A program made the translations under genes and the position numbers. 64,000 nucleotides of DNA from Epibacterium sp. Ofav1-8 (GTDB taxonomy: Bacteria > Pseudomonadota > Alphaproteobacteria > Rhodobacterales > Rhodobacteraceae): the NCBI RefSeq assembly GCF_022348185.1, contig NZ_JAKRFD010000003.1, positions 186,001 to 250,000 of the forward strand. The letters run 5' to 3'. The notes below the pieces were generated by a model. It was not told the origin of the DNA, searched no databases, and was given only the letters and a program-made list of their open reading frames with translations. Below, in pieces: positions 37,301 to 43,418 of the stretch (within the stretch, counting starts at the first letter, position 1; every line of letters begins with the position of its first letter).

Positions 37301-38209
37301 ATGGGCGGAAATCAAGTGGCGCTAGCAATGTGCGAACCCGAAAAACTGCTCGAGACGCTGAACTGGCCCAAGGCTCCTTCCGAGATATGGCAGGAGCCAT
37401 TTGACCGCATTCGAGGTCACTGTGAACGGATAGCCAACACTACGGAGCCGACTGACCTCTTTGACTTCTGCGATTTCTTTCTCGACTACCAGTACATGGA
37501 GGTTCAGGAAGACCTACTAGCGTTTGGTTTTCCTAAAGCGCTTGAAGCTTGGGCACGACAGGAGCTCAGTCACCCCGACCCCAGGCGCTTCAAAGGCACT
37601 TGGCATTTTGAGGGTATGTGGGATGCACTAGCATATCGCCCGATCTATCCCGAATTTTTTAACAAGCAGCAATATCGAGCAATGACAGATTTCTTCGTTC
37701 ATGTGCTGCTGGTACGTATGGGACGCGAGGAATTTTTGTCGTTTCGAGGAAGCGAAGCCAGCCCCTACGAGTGGATTAGATTGCATGACGAATTAATCTG
37801 GCTGTTTCCTGTAGCAGAGCAAATCTGGGACGAATGGTGGAGCTTCAAAACACCTGGAATGGCTGTGTGCGCGGTTCAATGGTTGTCAGCACTGCTTTAC
37901 GAGGAAGATGAAAATCCGTTCTTCGAACCCTGGAACTCGCTAGAAGGAGGGGGGGCGCCGAACCTAACCAGGATTGATCACTTGTCTAACGGGATTGATC
38001 ACTTGTCTAAGGAGACAGCCCCATCAGCCAATACTGAGTTCATTCGTTCAACCTTGACTCCAAAATGGGCCGAAGGTGTTTTGGCTCGAGCGGTCGAAGT
38101 CTTGTCAAAACACGAGAGTTTCGATCTTGTGTACACAATGTGGTTGGACAGTTCGCGTCGATCCACCCTTTTCGAAGAGCGAGCCCGAAAACTCCTCGAA
38201 GAGATGTAA
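37301..38209 (+). CDS. Hypothetical protein of unrelated base composition, 302 residues
   Basis: A soluble protein rich in aromatic and acidic residues (LFDFCDFFLDYQYMEVQEDL, PFFEPWNSLEG). It has many Trp and Phe and no signal peptide. I recognise no family. Codon use is clearly less GC-rich than in hflC or degP, which suggests acquired DNA. An in-frame 21-base tandem repeat gives RIDHLSNGIDHLSK in the middle. The start is uncertain: ATG at 37301 has an AAAGG nearby; a GTG at 37244 would add 19 residues. It could be a phage-defence or toxin-immunity type gene, but nothing in the sequence shows that. Confidence 0.65.
   Translation: MGGNQVALAMCEPEKLLETLNWPKAPSEIWQEPFDRIRGHCERIANTTEPTDLFDFCDFFLDYQYMEVQEDLLAFGFPKALEAWARQELSHPDPRRFKGTWHFEGMWDALAYRPIYPEFFNKQQYRAMTDFFVHVLLVRMGREEFLSFRGSEASPYEWIRLHDELIWLFPVAEQIWDEWWSFKTPGMAVCAVQWLSALLYEEDENPFFEPWNSLEGGGAPNLTRIDHLSNGIDHLSKETAPSANTEFIRSTLTPKWAEGVLARAVEVLSKHESFDLVYTMWLDSSRRSTLFEERARKLLEEM
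37974..38016 (+). repeat. 21-base tandem duplication inside the hypothetical gene
   Basis: GGATTGATCACTTGTCTAA occurs twice with a 21-base period. It adds seven residues in frame (IDHLSNG, IDHLSKE) and so keeps the gene open. It looks like a recent slippage or duplication event. Confidence 0.75.
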
Positions 38210-38749
38210 CGGAATACCTAAGGACCGTGATTTCTTGGGACGACAAATAGCTGTGCTTCATTGACTTATACCTTTGAAAAACGACACTTTTCTCTCGACG
38301 GTGAGAGCAATCCGCTTTGACACGACAGCAAAAGCGGTCATAGCGGATGGACGCAGCGAAAGGCCGTTTGGTCCGCACCTTCGACGCCCAAGATAGGCGA
38401 GGCAAAAAGGTTCCCTTGTTCTTCGCCGTGCTGATGCGGGTCTTCTGCTCCGCGTCTCCCCCGGAATAATCAGTGCTCGGCGGCGGGGCCAGATCACCCA
38501 CCGCCCACCTGTTGCGCTCTGGCCGCGGTCGCGAAACCTTCACCACCCTTCACGTCGAATTGAGGTGACTGTGCGCCCCATTGCGACTGCGCGCGGAGTG
38601 GCTACATTGGGTGGCATGAATTTCCCACCCCAACGCGCAGCACCTTGTCCCTGCTTGATGCTGCGCCTGAGGCACGGGTGCGCCCTTTCCCCTTATGTGC
38701 GGGGGCGGGCGGAGACAGAGTTGACAGGCCAATTCGAAGGAGTATGTCC
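38210..38749. other. 540-base gap before degP
   Basis: I support no gene here. A minus-strand frame (38040-38546) overlaps the hypothetical gene and has unlikely composition. The first half is AT-richer, like the inserted gene; the last 150 bases resemble the rest of the chromosome and should contain the degP promoter. The right edge of the insert therefore probably lies between about 38250 and 38560. Confidence 0.4.
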
Positions 38750-40249
38750 GTGCATCCAATCACCTCACCCAAGGCCCTGAGCCGCGCGCGCGCCCATGAC
38801 GGGATGCAGAGCGGCTGGCGCCTGTTCTGGATCGCGGTCCTCGGGACCGCGCTTCTGGTCATGCAGTCGCTGTCGGCGGCTGCCCGCCCCGAGAGCCTCG
38901 CACCGCTGGCAGAGAAAGTCAGCCCGGCTGTCGTGAACATCACCACCTCGACCGTGGTCGAAGGGCGCACCGGCCCACAGGGGATCGTGCCCGAAGGCTC
39001 CCCGTTTGAGGATTTCTTCCGCGAATTCCAGGACCGCAATGGTGGCGGCAACCGTCCGCGCCGCTCTTCGGCGCTGGGGTCCGGTTTTGTGATCTCCGAG
39101 GATGGCTATATCGTCACCAACAACCACGTGATCGAGGGTGCCGACGAGATCGAGATCGAGTTCTTCCCCGGTGACGGACAGCCCGCAGATCTGCTGCCGG
39201 CGACCGTTGTTGGCACCGACCCCAACACCGACATCGCGCTCTTGAAAGTGGATGCGCCGATGCCGCTGAAGTTTGTCAAATTCGGCAACAGCGACACCGC
39301 CCGCGTCGGCGACTGGGTGGTTGCGATGGGCAACCCGCTGGGGCAGGGCTTTTCGCTCTCGGCCGGGATCGTCTCGGCGCGCAACCGGGCGCTGTCGGGG
39401 TCGTATGACGACTACATCCAGACTGACGCCGCCATCAACCGCGGCAACTCCGGTGGTCCGCTGTTTAACATGGATGGCGAAGTGGTTGGCGTGAACACCG
39501 CGATCCTGTCGCCGAACGGGGGCTCCATCGGGATCGGGTTCTCCATGGCGTCCAATGTGGTGACCAAAGTGGTCGACCAGTTGAAGGAATTTGGCGAAAC
39601 CCGCCGCGGTTGGCTTGGTGTGCGCATTCAGGACGTGACCGATGACCTGGCCGAGGCGATCGGCCTTGAGAACGACAACGGCGTCCTGATCACCGATGTG
39701 CCTGATGGCCCCGCCAAGGACGCAGGTCTTCTGGCACGGGATGTCATCACCAGCTTCGACGGTTTCGAGGTGGAAGACACCCGCGACCTGGTGCGCCGTG
39801 TGGGCGATACCGAGGTCGGCAAGACCGTGCGCGTCGTGGTGTTTCGCGATGGCAAGACCGAGACCCTGCGCGTGACTCTTGGCCGGCGCGAAGATGCGGT
39901 GGGCAACAATGCCACCACCGGCTCTGGCGAAGCTGTCCCGGATGAGGGTGAAAAAGAGCTGCTCGGTCTGACGGTCGGCGTTGTCCGCGACGACATGCGC
40001 GAGGAGCTGAACCTGGATGCCGGCACCACCGGTCTGGTGATCCTGTCGGTGGATGAGACCTCGGGCGCATGGGAAAAAGGCCTGCGCGCCGGTGATGTGA
40101 TCACCGAAGCAGGTCAGAACAAGGTGGCCTCCATCTCGGATCTTGAAGCGCAAATCGAGGCGGCCGAGGATGCGGGGCGCAAGTCCATCTTCCTGATGGT
40201 GCGTCGCGCTGGAGAGCCACGTTTCGTGGCGCTGAACCTCGACGAGTAA
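38750..40249 (+). CDS. degP: Do/DegP-type periplasmic serine protease
   Basis: A 499-residue HtrA-family protease and chaperone of the periplasm. A signal segment (LFWIAVLGTALLVMQSLSAAA) precedes the trypsin-like domain, with catalytic His in TNNHVIEGAD, Asp in PNTDIALLKVD and Ser in NRGNSGGPLFN. Two PDZ domains follow (from about residues 285 and 400). GTG at 38750 is preferred because AAGGAG ends seven bases upstream; the ATG at 38744 lies almost on top of that site. hflKC upstream and degP together serve envelope protein quality control. A terminator follows. Confidence 0.95.
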   Translation: MHPITSPKALSRARAHDGMQSGWRLFWIAVLGTALLVMQSLSAAARPESLAPLAEKVSPAVVNITTSTVVEGRTGPQGIVPEGSPFEDFFREFQDRNGGGNRPRRSSALGSGFVISEDGYIVTNNHVIEGADEIEIEFFPGDGQPADLLPATVVGTDPNTDIALLKVDAPMPLKFVKFGNSDTARVGDWVVAMGNPLGQGFSLSAGIVSARNRALSGSYDDYIQTDAAINRGNSGGPLFNMDGEVVGVNTAILSPNGGSIGIGFSMASNVVTKVVDQLKEFGETRRGWLGVRIQDVTDDLAEAIGLENDNGVLITDVPDGPAKDAGLLARDVITSFDGFEVEDTRDLVRRVGDTEVGKTVRVVVFRDGKTETLRVTLGRREDAVGNNATTGSGEAVPDEGEKELLGLTVGVVRDDMREELNLDAGTTGLVILSVDETSGAWEKGLRAGDVITEAGQNKVASISDLEAQIEAAEDAGRKSIFLMVRRAGEPRFVALNLDE

Positions 40250-40292
40250 CAGGCCTCAGCCCCCCTGGCGGGGCAGGCATCTACTTCCTCAG

Positions 40293-40326
40293 CGGCCGGC
40301 CCCATCGGGTCGGCCGTTTTGTTTTG
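40293..40326 (+). terminator. Rho-independent terminator of degP
   Basis: CGGCCGGCCC and GGGTCGGCCG form an imperfect stem followed by TTTTGTTTT. Confidence 0.85.
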
Positions 40327-40351
40327 TAGGTGGGCGTTTTTGAAACCAAAA

Positions 40352-40380
40352 GAGCCATGTGTCGGGCGGACACATGGCTC
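40352..40380. other. Perfect 12-bp hairpin before the heptanucleotide tract
   Basis: GAGCCATGTGTC and GACACATGGCTC are exact complements around GGGCG. On the minus strand TTTTGG follows, so it might end leftward transcripts; on the plus strand no T-run follows. The surrounding 40327-40640 region has no supported gene. Confidence 0.55.
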
Positions 40381-40646
40381 AAGATGGGACGGACGGCCAT
40401 TGGGATGGATAGGAGAATGACCGCCTTAAAGTCCTTATGGCAGAGGCTACGAGGGCGGACTGTGAAACAGGTTACATTCGCGGGATTTTTTTATGGCTGA
40501 ACGCTCAGTTTTTTTCTGCATCTTTTCGCAAGGCTGCGTCACATGACGCCTGGTGTCCGAACCAATGGTGCGCCAAGTCTTCTGTGGTCAGCTGCGCTTC
40601 GGAAAAGGGGGTGAGAGGCTTGACAGATGAGCGGGGACGGACGAAC

Positions 40647-40730
40647 GGTTCACGGTTCACGGTTCACGGTTCACGGTTCACGGTTCACGGTTCACGGTTC
40701 ACGGTTCACGGTTCACGGTTCACGGTTCAC
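40647..40730 (+). repeat. Heptanucleotide microsatellite (GGTTCAC)x12
   Basis: Exactly 84 bases made of 12 perfect copies of GGTTCAC. Because 7 is not a multiple of 3, each copy gained or lost shifts the reading frame; because 7 and 3 share no factor, all three forward frames read the same repeating heptapeptide GSRFTVH without stops. With 12 copies an upstream ATG at 40627, which has GAGAGG eight bases before it, is in frame with the acetyltransferase downstream. This is the layout of a contingency (phase-variable) locus. Confidence 0.95.
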
Positions 40731-40761
40731 GGTACGCGCAAGCAAAGGTTTGGGGGATAGA

Positions 40762-41301
40762 GTGGAGTTCTCAACACAGATCGACGGTCGAGAAGAGCAG
40801 ATTAAATCGCTCTTTGCGCAGACATTTGCGGCTTCGGAGGGCGCCGACGAGGGGCGCTTGATTGCTGCGCTGGTGGAGCGGTTGCTAAACACCACTCCGC
40901 GTGAGGATCTTTTTGTTTTTACGCAGGCCGAAGGTGAGGCTCTCATTGCGGCAGCGATCTTTTCTCGGCTGACGTATTCAGAGGATGCGCGATCGGTGTT
41001 CATTCTGTCCCCTATGGCCGTCGCGACAGAGCGACAGAAACAAGGGGTGGGGCAGGCCTTGTTGAAAGAGGCCTTGAACGCACTTTCCAAGGAAGGTGTT
41101 GATGTCGCCATCACCTATGGTGATCCAGCCTTTTACGGCAAGGTTGGGTTTGAGCCCCTGGACGAGGACACCGCCGCCGCCCCCTTGCCGCTGAGCCAAC
41201 CGGTCGGATGGATCGGTCAGCCGCTCCAAGAGCCTGCGTTGCTGCCACTCAAGGGGCGGTGCACCTGTGTCGCGGCGCTCGATGATCCGGCGATCTGGTA
41301 A
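40762..41301 (+). CDS. GNAT family N-acetyltransferase, possibly phase-variable
   Basis: A 179-residue acetyltransferase of the YhbS-like type. The acetyl-CoA loop is seen as ATERQKQGVGQALLKEA, and TYGDPAFYGKVGFEPL is the conserved late segment. The GTG start at 40762 has GGGGGAT upstream and gives a normal family N-terminus. A longer form starts at ATG 40627, runs through the (GGTTCAC)x12 tract in frame and adds 45 residues, mostly GSRFTVH repeats. Changes in copy number would switch the long form on and off, or change promoter spacing for the short form. The acceptor substrate is unknown. It is convergent with the Crp-type regulator by 15 bases. Confidence 0.85.
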   Translation: MEFSTQIDGREEQIKSLFAQTFAASEGADEGRLIAALVERLLNTTPREDLFVFTQAEGEALIAAAIFSRLTYSEDARSVFILSPMAVATERQKQGVGQALLKEALNALSKEGVDVAITYGDPAFYGKVGFEPLDEDTAAAPLPLSQPVGWIGQPLQEPALLPLKGRCTCVAALDDPAIW

Positions 41302-41316
41302 GCGGGGAAGGCGCCC

Positions 41317-41985
41317 TCAGATCCCCTCGGGATCGGCAAGAACCGCGAGGCCGCCGCGGTCTTTCAGTTGCAACCCGCCCCGGCTGATTTCGATCAGTCC
41401 CGCCTTACGCCAGTTCGATAGCGTCTTGGACACCGCTTCGCGGGTGGCGCCGACAAACTCCGCGAGTTCCGACTGCGACAGGCTCAGCTGGCCGTTGCCA
41501 TCTGCGGGTGTGAGATAGAGGAGCTTGCGCGCCAGCCGCACCGGCATCGGCAGGAACACCTGCTCATTGAGCTGCGTGTTCATCCAGCGCATGCGTTGCC
41601 CGGCGAGTTTCAGCATATCGCCTGCAAGCTCCGGGTGCTTTGTCAGCTGCGCGAGCACATCGCGGTGCCGCAGGCGGCGCAGGTGGCTGGGTTCGGCAGC
41701 GGTGGCAGTGGCTGTGCGCTCGCCGGGGTCGAACATGGCAATCTCGCCAAAGATCGCACCGGGGCGCATCATATCGAGCGAGAGTTTGCGTCCGGACGCG
41801 GAGAGGGTTGAGATCTCCAACGCGCCAGAAATGATCGCATAGAGGGCATCGCCCTCATCGCCCCGTTCGAACAGCACGTCGCCGGTCTTGAGGTGCACAT
41901 CGGTGGCCTGGCTGTCGAGCATGGCCCGCAGCCGATCCGAGGCTCCAAACAGGAAGCTGGATGCGGGCAGGGGGGCAATGGCCAT
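41317..41985 (-). CDS. Crp/Fnr family transcriptional regulator
   Basis: A 222-residue regulator. The cyclic-nucleotide-binding-like domain spans about 15-130 (VLFERGDEGDALYAIISGAL, PGAIFGEIAMFDPGERTATA). The helix-turn-helix is LSQSELAEFVGATREAVSKT with LSNWRKAGLIEI. There is no N-terminal Cys cluster, so it is not an FNR-type oxygen sensor; F-G-E-I-A-M-F-D-P-G-E-R-T-A-T is close to the cAMP-pocket pattern of CRP. The start at 41985 has GGAGAGC upstream; the frame extends upstream but is Pro/Arg-rich and not credible. Confidence 0.9.
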   Translation of the reverse strand: MAIAPLPASSFLFGASDRLRAMLDSQATDVHLKTGDVLFERGDEGDALYAIISGALEISTLSASGRKLSLDMMRPGAIFGEIAMFDPGERTATATAAEPSHLRRLRHRDVLAQLTKHPELAGDMLKLAGQRMRWMNTQLNEQVFLPMPVRLARKLLYLTPADGNGQLSLSQSELAEFVGATREAVSKTLSNWRKAGLIEISRGGLQLKDRGGLAVLADPEGI

Positions 41986-42124
41986 GGGGCGCTCTCCGGG
42001 CGGGCTGTCAGTGCAAGGGGGAGGATCTCTCCGTTTTTGTGTTCTAGGGGGCCCAGGGCTCTGGTGCAAGCTTGCACGTGGGATATGGAATGTTTGCGGT
42101 CCCACCTGGGCCGTGGCGCCGGTC

Positions 42125-42721
42125 CTATGTCGACCCGGGCAGATCGACGGCGCTGAGGCCAAGGCTGCGGGCCGCCCGCAGCGACAAGGTGGCGCTGTCG
42201 ATGCCAAACCCCGCCTGATAGCTGCGGATGGCGGCGCGGGTTTCGGCGTTGAGCGTGGCGGTGATCAGGCCGCTGTAGAGGTCGCGCGCGGCCAATGCCC
42301 GTTGCAGCGATGCAATATATTCCGGGGTCATCACCTCGGGGCAGGGGGTCTCGAAATAGGTTTCCTCGCGCGGCCGGGTGATCTGCTGGCGGCTGTGACT
42401 GGAGAAGGTGGCCGGGGCAAGTACGGTGCCGTCAGGGGATGTCACTTCGGGTGAGACCAGGACCTGCTCGGTCACGGTTTCGATTCGCGCCGGAATGATC
42501 ACGCTGTCCCAGCAGGTGCCAGCGGGGGCGCCCGGGGGCGCGGAGCGACCGACACCTTCGAAGGGCGCAGCGGCGACACAGGCGTTCAATGTCAGAAGGA
42601 GGAGCACCGCCATGCCACGCGCGCCGCAGGCCCGGCGAGACCGGTCCGGTATGGCTGCCCTGCACGGGGGCGCTTGCAGCGTGACGCTCTGGGCAGCGGG
42701 CGGAGGCAAAGGGGCGGGCAT
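42125..42721 (-). CDS. Putative lipoprotein with peptidoglycan-binding-like domain
   Basis: The protein carries a hydrophobic segment ending in LLLLTLNAC, a good lipobox with Cys48 if translation starts at 42721. The C-terminal 65 residues (YIASLQRALAARDLYSGLIT, NAETRAAIRSYQAGFG) match the PG-binding-1 repeat, which anchors proteins to the cell wall. The start is uncertain: ATG at 42613 leaves no positive charge before the hydrophobic core, while 42721 gives an Arg-rich n-region; neither has a strong ribosome site. It is probably a periplasmic or outer-membrane lipoprotein. Confidence 0.72.
   Translation of the reverse strand: MPAPLPPPAAQSVTLQAPPCRAAIPDRSRRACGARGMAVLLLLTLNACVAAAPFEGVGRSAPPGAPAGTCWDSVIIPARIETVTEQVLVSPEVTSPDGTVLAPATFSSHSRQQITRPREETYFETPCPEVMTPEYIASLQRALAARDLYSGLITATLNAETRAAIRSYQAGFGIDSATLSLRAARSLGLSAVDLPGST

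Positions 42722-43418
<697 letters not shown>

Follow-up and report, generated by a model that had tools for sequence, protein, structure and literature searches.

Does the copy number of a heptanucleotide repeat decide whether an acetyltransferase is made? The question is raised by a perfect array of twelve GGTTCAC units, which stands in front of such a gene in the genome of Epibacterium sp. Ofav1-8, within the 64,000-nucleotide stretch analysed here (the window). An earlier note on this DNA preferred a phase-variation switch, in which translation from ATG 40627 passes through the tract and is ON at multiples of three copies; as an alternative it proposed that GTG 40762 is the start and that the tract belongs to the 5' leader. 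If the switch works, its presence on an acetyltransferase gene in a bacterium of the roseobacter type would be out of the ordinary. Phase variation is described, in the abstract of PMC11475388, as typical of the surface genes of small-genome pathogens, and a literature search combining roseobacter, phase variation and tandem repeat returned no paper.

The GGTTCAC array and its reading frames

The array occupies positions 40647-40730 of the forward strand, and the count of twelve perfect units made by the earlier note agrees with the sequence itself, with TRF and with a pattern count. TRF reports the array at 40645-40733 with period 7, 12.7 copies and 100% match, and the pattern count gives 12 occurrences of GGTTCACG spaced 7 bases, the first at 40647 and the last at 40724. 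It spans 89 bases, more than any other perfect array of period 4-12 on the whole 442,750-base contig, which comprises the window and 378,750 further bases; the runner-up, built from a hexamer, has 36 bases. By this measure it is a heptanucleotide long simple sequence repeat (LSSR), a term that is defined in PMC4679880 as a series of 1-11 nt units (5-11 in the long-unit class) exceeding the statistical expectation in the genome.

Across the 4.76-Mb genome, runs of at least three GGTTCAC copies occur at this locus only, and there are none in the 17 other members of the genus. Three copies are likewise absent from the other 397 genomes sampled from the phylum (Pseudomonadota) and four copies from the other 393 sampled from the family; these two samples overlap in some genomes and represent the genus by the genome analysed here and G010. 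Since the unit is absent from the relatives sampled in both family and phylum, it is not common among them. The array has not arisen by chance: it is real and unusual for its genome, but of a known kind. A plasmid collection queried with the 3-kb locus gave no match, and a literature search for the unit by its letters yielded nothing on the subject among the 20 of 742 matches listed. The TTCAC within the unit, considered by eye as a possible Crp/Fnr half-site, was set aside because all copies point one way and no palindrome results.

Outside this phylum sample the repeat has counterparts in unrelated DNA. Queried with the 107-aa frame that passes through the tract, a homologue search retrieved 87 proteins (P0121-P0207), among which 82 contain the exact GSRFTVH heptad in some rotation and 35 have about 12 consecutive repeat residues; the named sources include Acidobacteria, Burkholderia, the alga Rhodomonas and two fungi. 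Viral contigs hold three GGTTCAC copies in 15 stretches on 14 contigs (L066-L080), against 3, 3 and 1 for three controls of the same composition. The viral arrays have 3-4 perfect copies, and fewer than 15 of them are independent because some share flanks. It therefore looks as if the unit has arisen more than once in DNA of unrelated origin, the Pseudomonadota sample excepted.

The arithmetic of the frames is as the earlier note described it. Every forward frame of the tract encodes the same stop-free GSRFTVH heptad, and the frame of ATG 40627, computed for n = 8-16 copies, enters the acetyltransferase only when n is divisible by three. This possible leader reading frame (40627-40761, forward strand) is open into the gene at n = 12 and closed at 10, 11, 13 and 14. 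Where n leaves a remainder of one, it ends at TAG 40758-40760, 4 bases before the GTG; where n leaves a remainder of two, it ends 97 bases beyond GTG 40762. The reverse strand of the unit is not stop-free. A unit length that is not a multiple of three, joined to stop-free forward frames, is also the configuration of neuO-type repeats. It is nevertheless a weak pointer to a frame switch, even together with a copy number divisible by three, because stop-free tandem arrays are formed by 69% of all heptamers (78% when their G+C equals that of GGTTCAC) and a random n is divisible by three in one case out of three. Another upstream frame, which opens at ATG 40437 and runs for 107 aa to TAG 40760, was set aside: its ribosome site is weak (-1.0), matches from the homologue search span 23-64% of the frame, and the repeat is present in the sequences inspected, 36 of the 87.

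The acetyltransferase gene and its start

Directly 3' of this slippage-prone type of tract the sequence bears out a gene of the GNAT family, which runs from 40762 to 41301 on the forward strand and encodes an N-acetyltransferase of 179 aa from its most likely start, GTG 40762. Membership of the family follows from Pfam domains above their gathering scores, namely PF13508 (32.7 bits, cut-off 27), PF13527 (28.3, cut-off 25), PF13673 (25.5, cut-off 23.6) and PF00583 (24.5, cut-off 20.7). PF14542 stays below its own cut-off, none of the three listed NCBIfam models reaches its cut-off on this protein, and PDB 4rs2 gives a partial match over residues 52-132.

The position of the start was approached through homologues. 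Among the best 120 of 513 GNAT homologues examined, 100 share the starting residue encoded by GTG 40762, which places their start 3' of the tract and not before it as in a neuO-type gene, where the tract lies between the true start and the protein body; this is a comparison with annotated starts, which partly reflect the habits of gene callers. In line with this start, 93 of the 120 measure 179 aa; 19 are longer by 1-67 residues and one is shorter by 4. P0001 and P0002, the two proteins with 97% identity, are both listed at 179 aa. Neither RFTV nor FTVH occurs in any of these 120 homologues. P0069 (222 aa) and P0101 (246 aa) have longer N-termini, which were considered as relatives of the heptad and rejected: BLASTP aligns them, but they bear no likeness to the repeat.

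Ribosome binding discriminates less. The earlier note had credited ATG 40627 with a good ribosome site, a claim that holds in part: at the usual spacing its Shine-Dalgarno energy is -5.8 kcal/mol with a short 16S tail and -7.8 with a long one, whereas the strongest match (-14.3 kcal/mol) was discarded as strong support because the pairing sits 13-20 bases upstream, too far from the codon. At GTG 40762 the energy at the usual spacing is -8.4 kcal/mol with either tail, an assumed 16S tail sequence being used in all these calculations. In the contig, however, such scores discriminate poorly, as 150 open codons follow 28% of the ATGs at -8 or below versus 22% overall, and it is therefore the homologue starts that carry the argument. 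Because 100 of the 120 fall 3' of the tract and none of the 120 proteins has RFTV or FTVH, the leader of the GNAT gene, 5' of its real start, is the most likely place of the tract. Translation through the repeat from ATG 40627 is disfavoured on the same grounds, and the alternative of the earlier note, a start at GTG 40762 with the tract in the leader, is the better fit.

The locus within the genus

The upstream neighbour is the frame of a Do-family (DegP/HtrA) protease (38645-40249), and the downstream neighbour, on the opposite strand, encodes a Crp/Fnr-type regulator that shares 96% identity with a protein of the MAG Alphaproteobacteria bacterium MedPE-SWcel; its further named matches include Roseobacter, Phaeobacter, Phycobacter and Ruegeria. 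The conserved upstream flank beside the degP-like gene is found in 8 of the 17 other genus members, in which the arrangement was compared. All eight have the protease side, and in seven the Crp/Fnr-type gene follows beyond the flank; in G008 that gene does not fall within the stretch compared. None of the eight carries the tract at this locus, none has a GNAT gene there among the matches listed, and their GNAT matches, where there are any, lie at other loci. The cargo that separates the conserved element from the regulator gene varies by species, with 63 bases in G001, 64 in G006, 785 in G016 and 1061 in G004. Since the spacer cargo differs and the GNAT genes of the relatives are elsewhere, the segment 40493-41315, comprising leader, tract and GNAT gene, looks like an insert specific to the lineage; it has a G+C content of 58%, and the window as a whole has 63%.

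Other short tandem repeats, with units of 14-20 bases in 2-4 copies, are present in the spacers of G009, G010 and G015, and the remaining spacers hold trivial repeats only. That repeats arise at this spacer without a GNAT gene is only a hint, because the TRF threshold was low and the count had no background control. Upstream of GNAT homologues no heptamer array was seen in the 13 loci examined (the closest of 36), where repeats of other kinds occur: an 18-base unit in three copies at L044 and about two copies of 12-21-base units at L012, L013 and L039. At L016 (G006:C33:9750-10287) the GNAT homologue is in two pieces with an internal TGA and looks broken.

The conserved element itself, at 40352-40476 on the reverse strand, is a flank and stands outside the mechanism proposed for the tract. 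It is kept beside the degP-like gene in 9 of the 18 genomes of the genus and in none of 23 other genomes. It comprises a CRP-like palindrome, TGT(G/A)A-N6-TCACA, strictly TGTGA in 7 of the 9 and TGTAA in this genome and G008, a CATAA or GATAA motif and then an 80-base stretch with two predicted hairpins (consensus -33.3 kcal/mol) and a terminator-like end. From genus comparison and predicted folding, it looks like a candidate small RNA gene, possibly under Crp/Fnr control and near the Crp/Fnr-type gene. A search of 38000-43000 against Rfam gave one match far below the gathering score and none for the element.

A leader repeat and its rivals

The reading that we consider probable, with a confidence somewhat better than even, is that a heptanucleotide repeat (VNTR), young and prone to slippage, occupies the leader of a lineage-specific GNAT gene that starts at GTG 40762, and that it affects expression by degrees or not at all. 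Slipped-strand mispairing would probably shift the copy number in 7-base steps, as the perfection of the array suggests. With the conserved start and the ribosome site belonging to it both 3' of the tract, in-frame synthesis of the enzyme would not depend on copy number, which may at most alter the length or the translation of the leader, with an effect that would be graded or absent. Copy-number-dependent RNA folding at the GTG was rejected as a contributor, because, for an assumed mRNA 5' end, the GTG region keeps a predicted accessibility of 0.36-0.39 over 3-18 copies. The recurrence of the unit and of GSRFTVH-like repeats in unrelated DNA also counts in favour of the leader reading, as does the lack of tract and GNAT gene at this locus in the relatives compared. 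Counted against the leader reading are the perfection of the tract, its nearness to the start codon, a copy number in the in-frame class (a chance of one in three), the 19 of 120 homologues that are longer, and the rarity of the unit among the relatives sampled, since an array that stands alone is not necessarily neutral. Moreover, work cited in PMC4692102 found simple repeats enriched near N-termini and took this as a sign of phase variation.

A NeuO-type on/off switch would start at ATG 40627, add one GSRFTVH heptad for every three copies and yield enzyme only when n is a multiple of three. The frame outcomes agree with it, since at n = 12 and at none of the four neighbouring copy numbers computed does this frame run into the GNAT gene, and the neuO gene of Escherichia coli K1 does work in this way with AAGACTC. 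In 100 of the 120 homologues, however, the start is 3' of the repeat, so that off-phase cells should still begin translation at GTG 40762, and the strongest Shine-Dalgarno pairing for ATG 40627 is too distant from that codon on its upstream side. We regard this switch as unlikely, and as less likely than the leader repeat. Much the same doubt attaches to a three-state version in which a leader peptide from ATG 40627, upstream of a complete gene, is set by copy number modulo three. When n is a multiple of three, an N-terminally extended enzyme would be made; with a remainder of one, ribosomes would terminate at TAG 40758-40760, which a single base separates from the GTG, and reinitiate to give the plain enzyme; with a remainder of two, out-of-frame ribosomes would run 97 bases past the GTG, hinder the start and leave little enzyme. 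Both stop positions hold for n = 8-16, and the layout at 40752-40764 on the forward strand (GGGGGA ribosome site, TAG, one base, GTG, with the energy of -8.4 kcal/mol) would allow termination-reinitiation; yet this layout could be chance and translation of the leader is hypothetical, so that we give the scheme little credence.

Graded control of the hmw1A kind is a tentative possibility, below even but above the two frame-based schemes. Here the tract would be part of a promoter or 5' untranslated region, and transcription or mRNA level would be tuned by how long it is, a proposal that overlaps the graded branch of our preferred explanation. The placement of the repeat before the likely start suits it, and according to PMC8262952 heptamers lie between the two promoters of hmw1A and more copies bring less expression. 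Against it, no sigma-70-like promoter was recognised in 40240-40800, a search that other promoter types would escape, and leader folding is predicted to be independent of copy number, given the assumed mRNA 5' end. An assembled copy number that is wrong, or that is the consensus of a mixed population, is the most improbable of these readings: the draft genome consists of 37 contigs, but an array of 89 bases is shorter than ordinary reads and lies inside a contig of 442,750 bases.

Under the preferred reading of a leader repeat, the locus is an example of a striking repeat before a gene that suggests a frame switch while the homologue starts speak against it, and with a single array, a single gene and a start downstream of the array it offers a simple test bed. 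Among the closest known systems is neuO, the polysialate O-acetyltransferase gene of the CUS-3 prophage of E. coli K1, where an (AAGACTC)n array also lies 5' in an acetyltransferase gene and three copies encode one heptad. PMC13001214 and PMC3046976 describe neuO as ON at multiples of three and its natural 12-copy allele as encoding four heptads. In neuO the array begins two bases after the start codon and off-phases therefore truncate the protein, whereas here the start of most homologues is 3' of the array; NeuO is moreover a left-handed beta-helix enzyme and the enzyme here a GNAT. The position upstream of the start is shared with the (ATCTTTC)n arrays in the promoter/leader of hmw1A and hmw2A of Haemophilus influenzae. 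Those are adhesin genes with mapped promoters, for which variation in copy number has been demonstrated, along with its lowering effect on expression.

The earlier note considered perfect repeats as long as this one to be rare except at contingency loci, a view at odds with PMC4679880 and PMC4692102. Tandem repeats are sporadic among bacteria, and heptanucleotides are the most abundant class of long repeats in most genomes (PMC4679880, in a passage citing Mrazek et al. 2007); the genes near intergenic heptamer families are spread over functional classes, with no link to phase-variable functions (PMC4692102). The GGTTCAC array resembles the LSSRs GGGAATC of Xanthomonas, GGGGA(C/T)T of Nostoc and TAACTGA of Beggiatoaceae, 7-base and largely intergenic arrays that the same two sources describe across unrelated bacteria. 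These heptamers form many arrays per genome, whereas GGTTCAC forms a single one.
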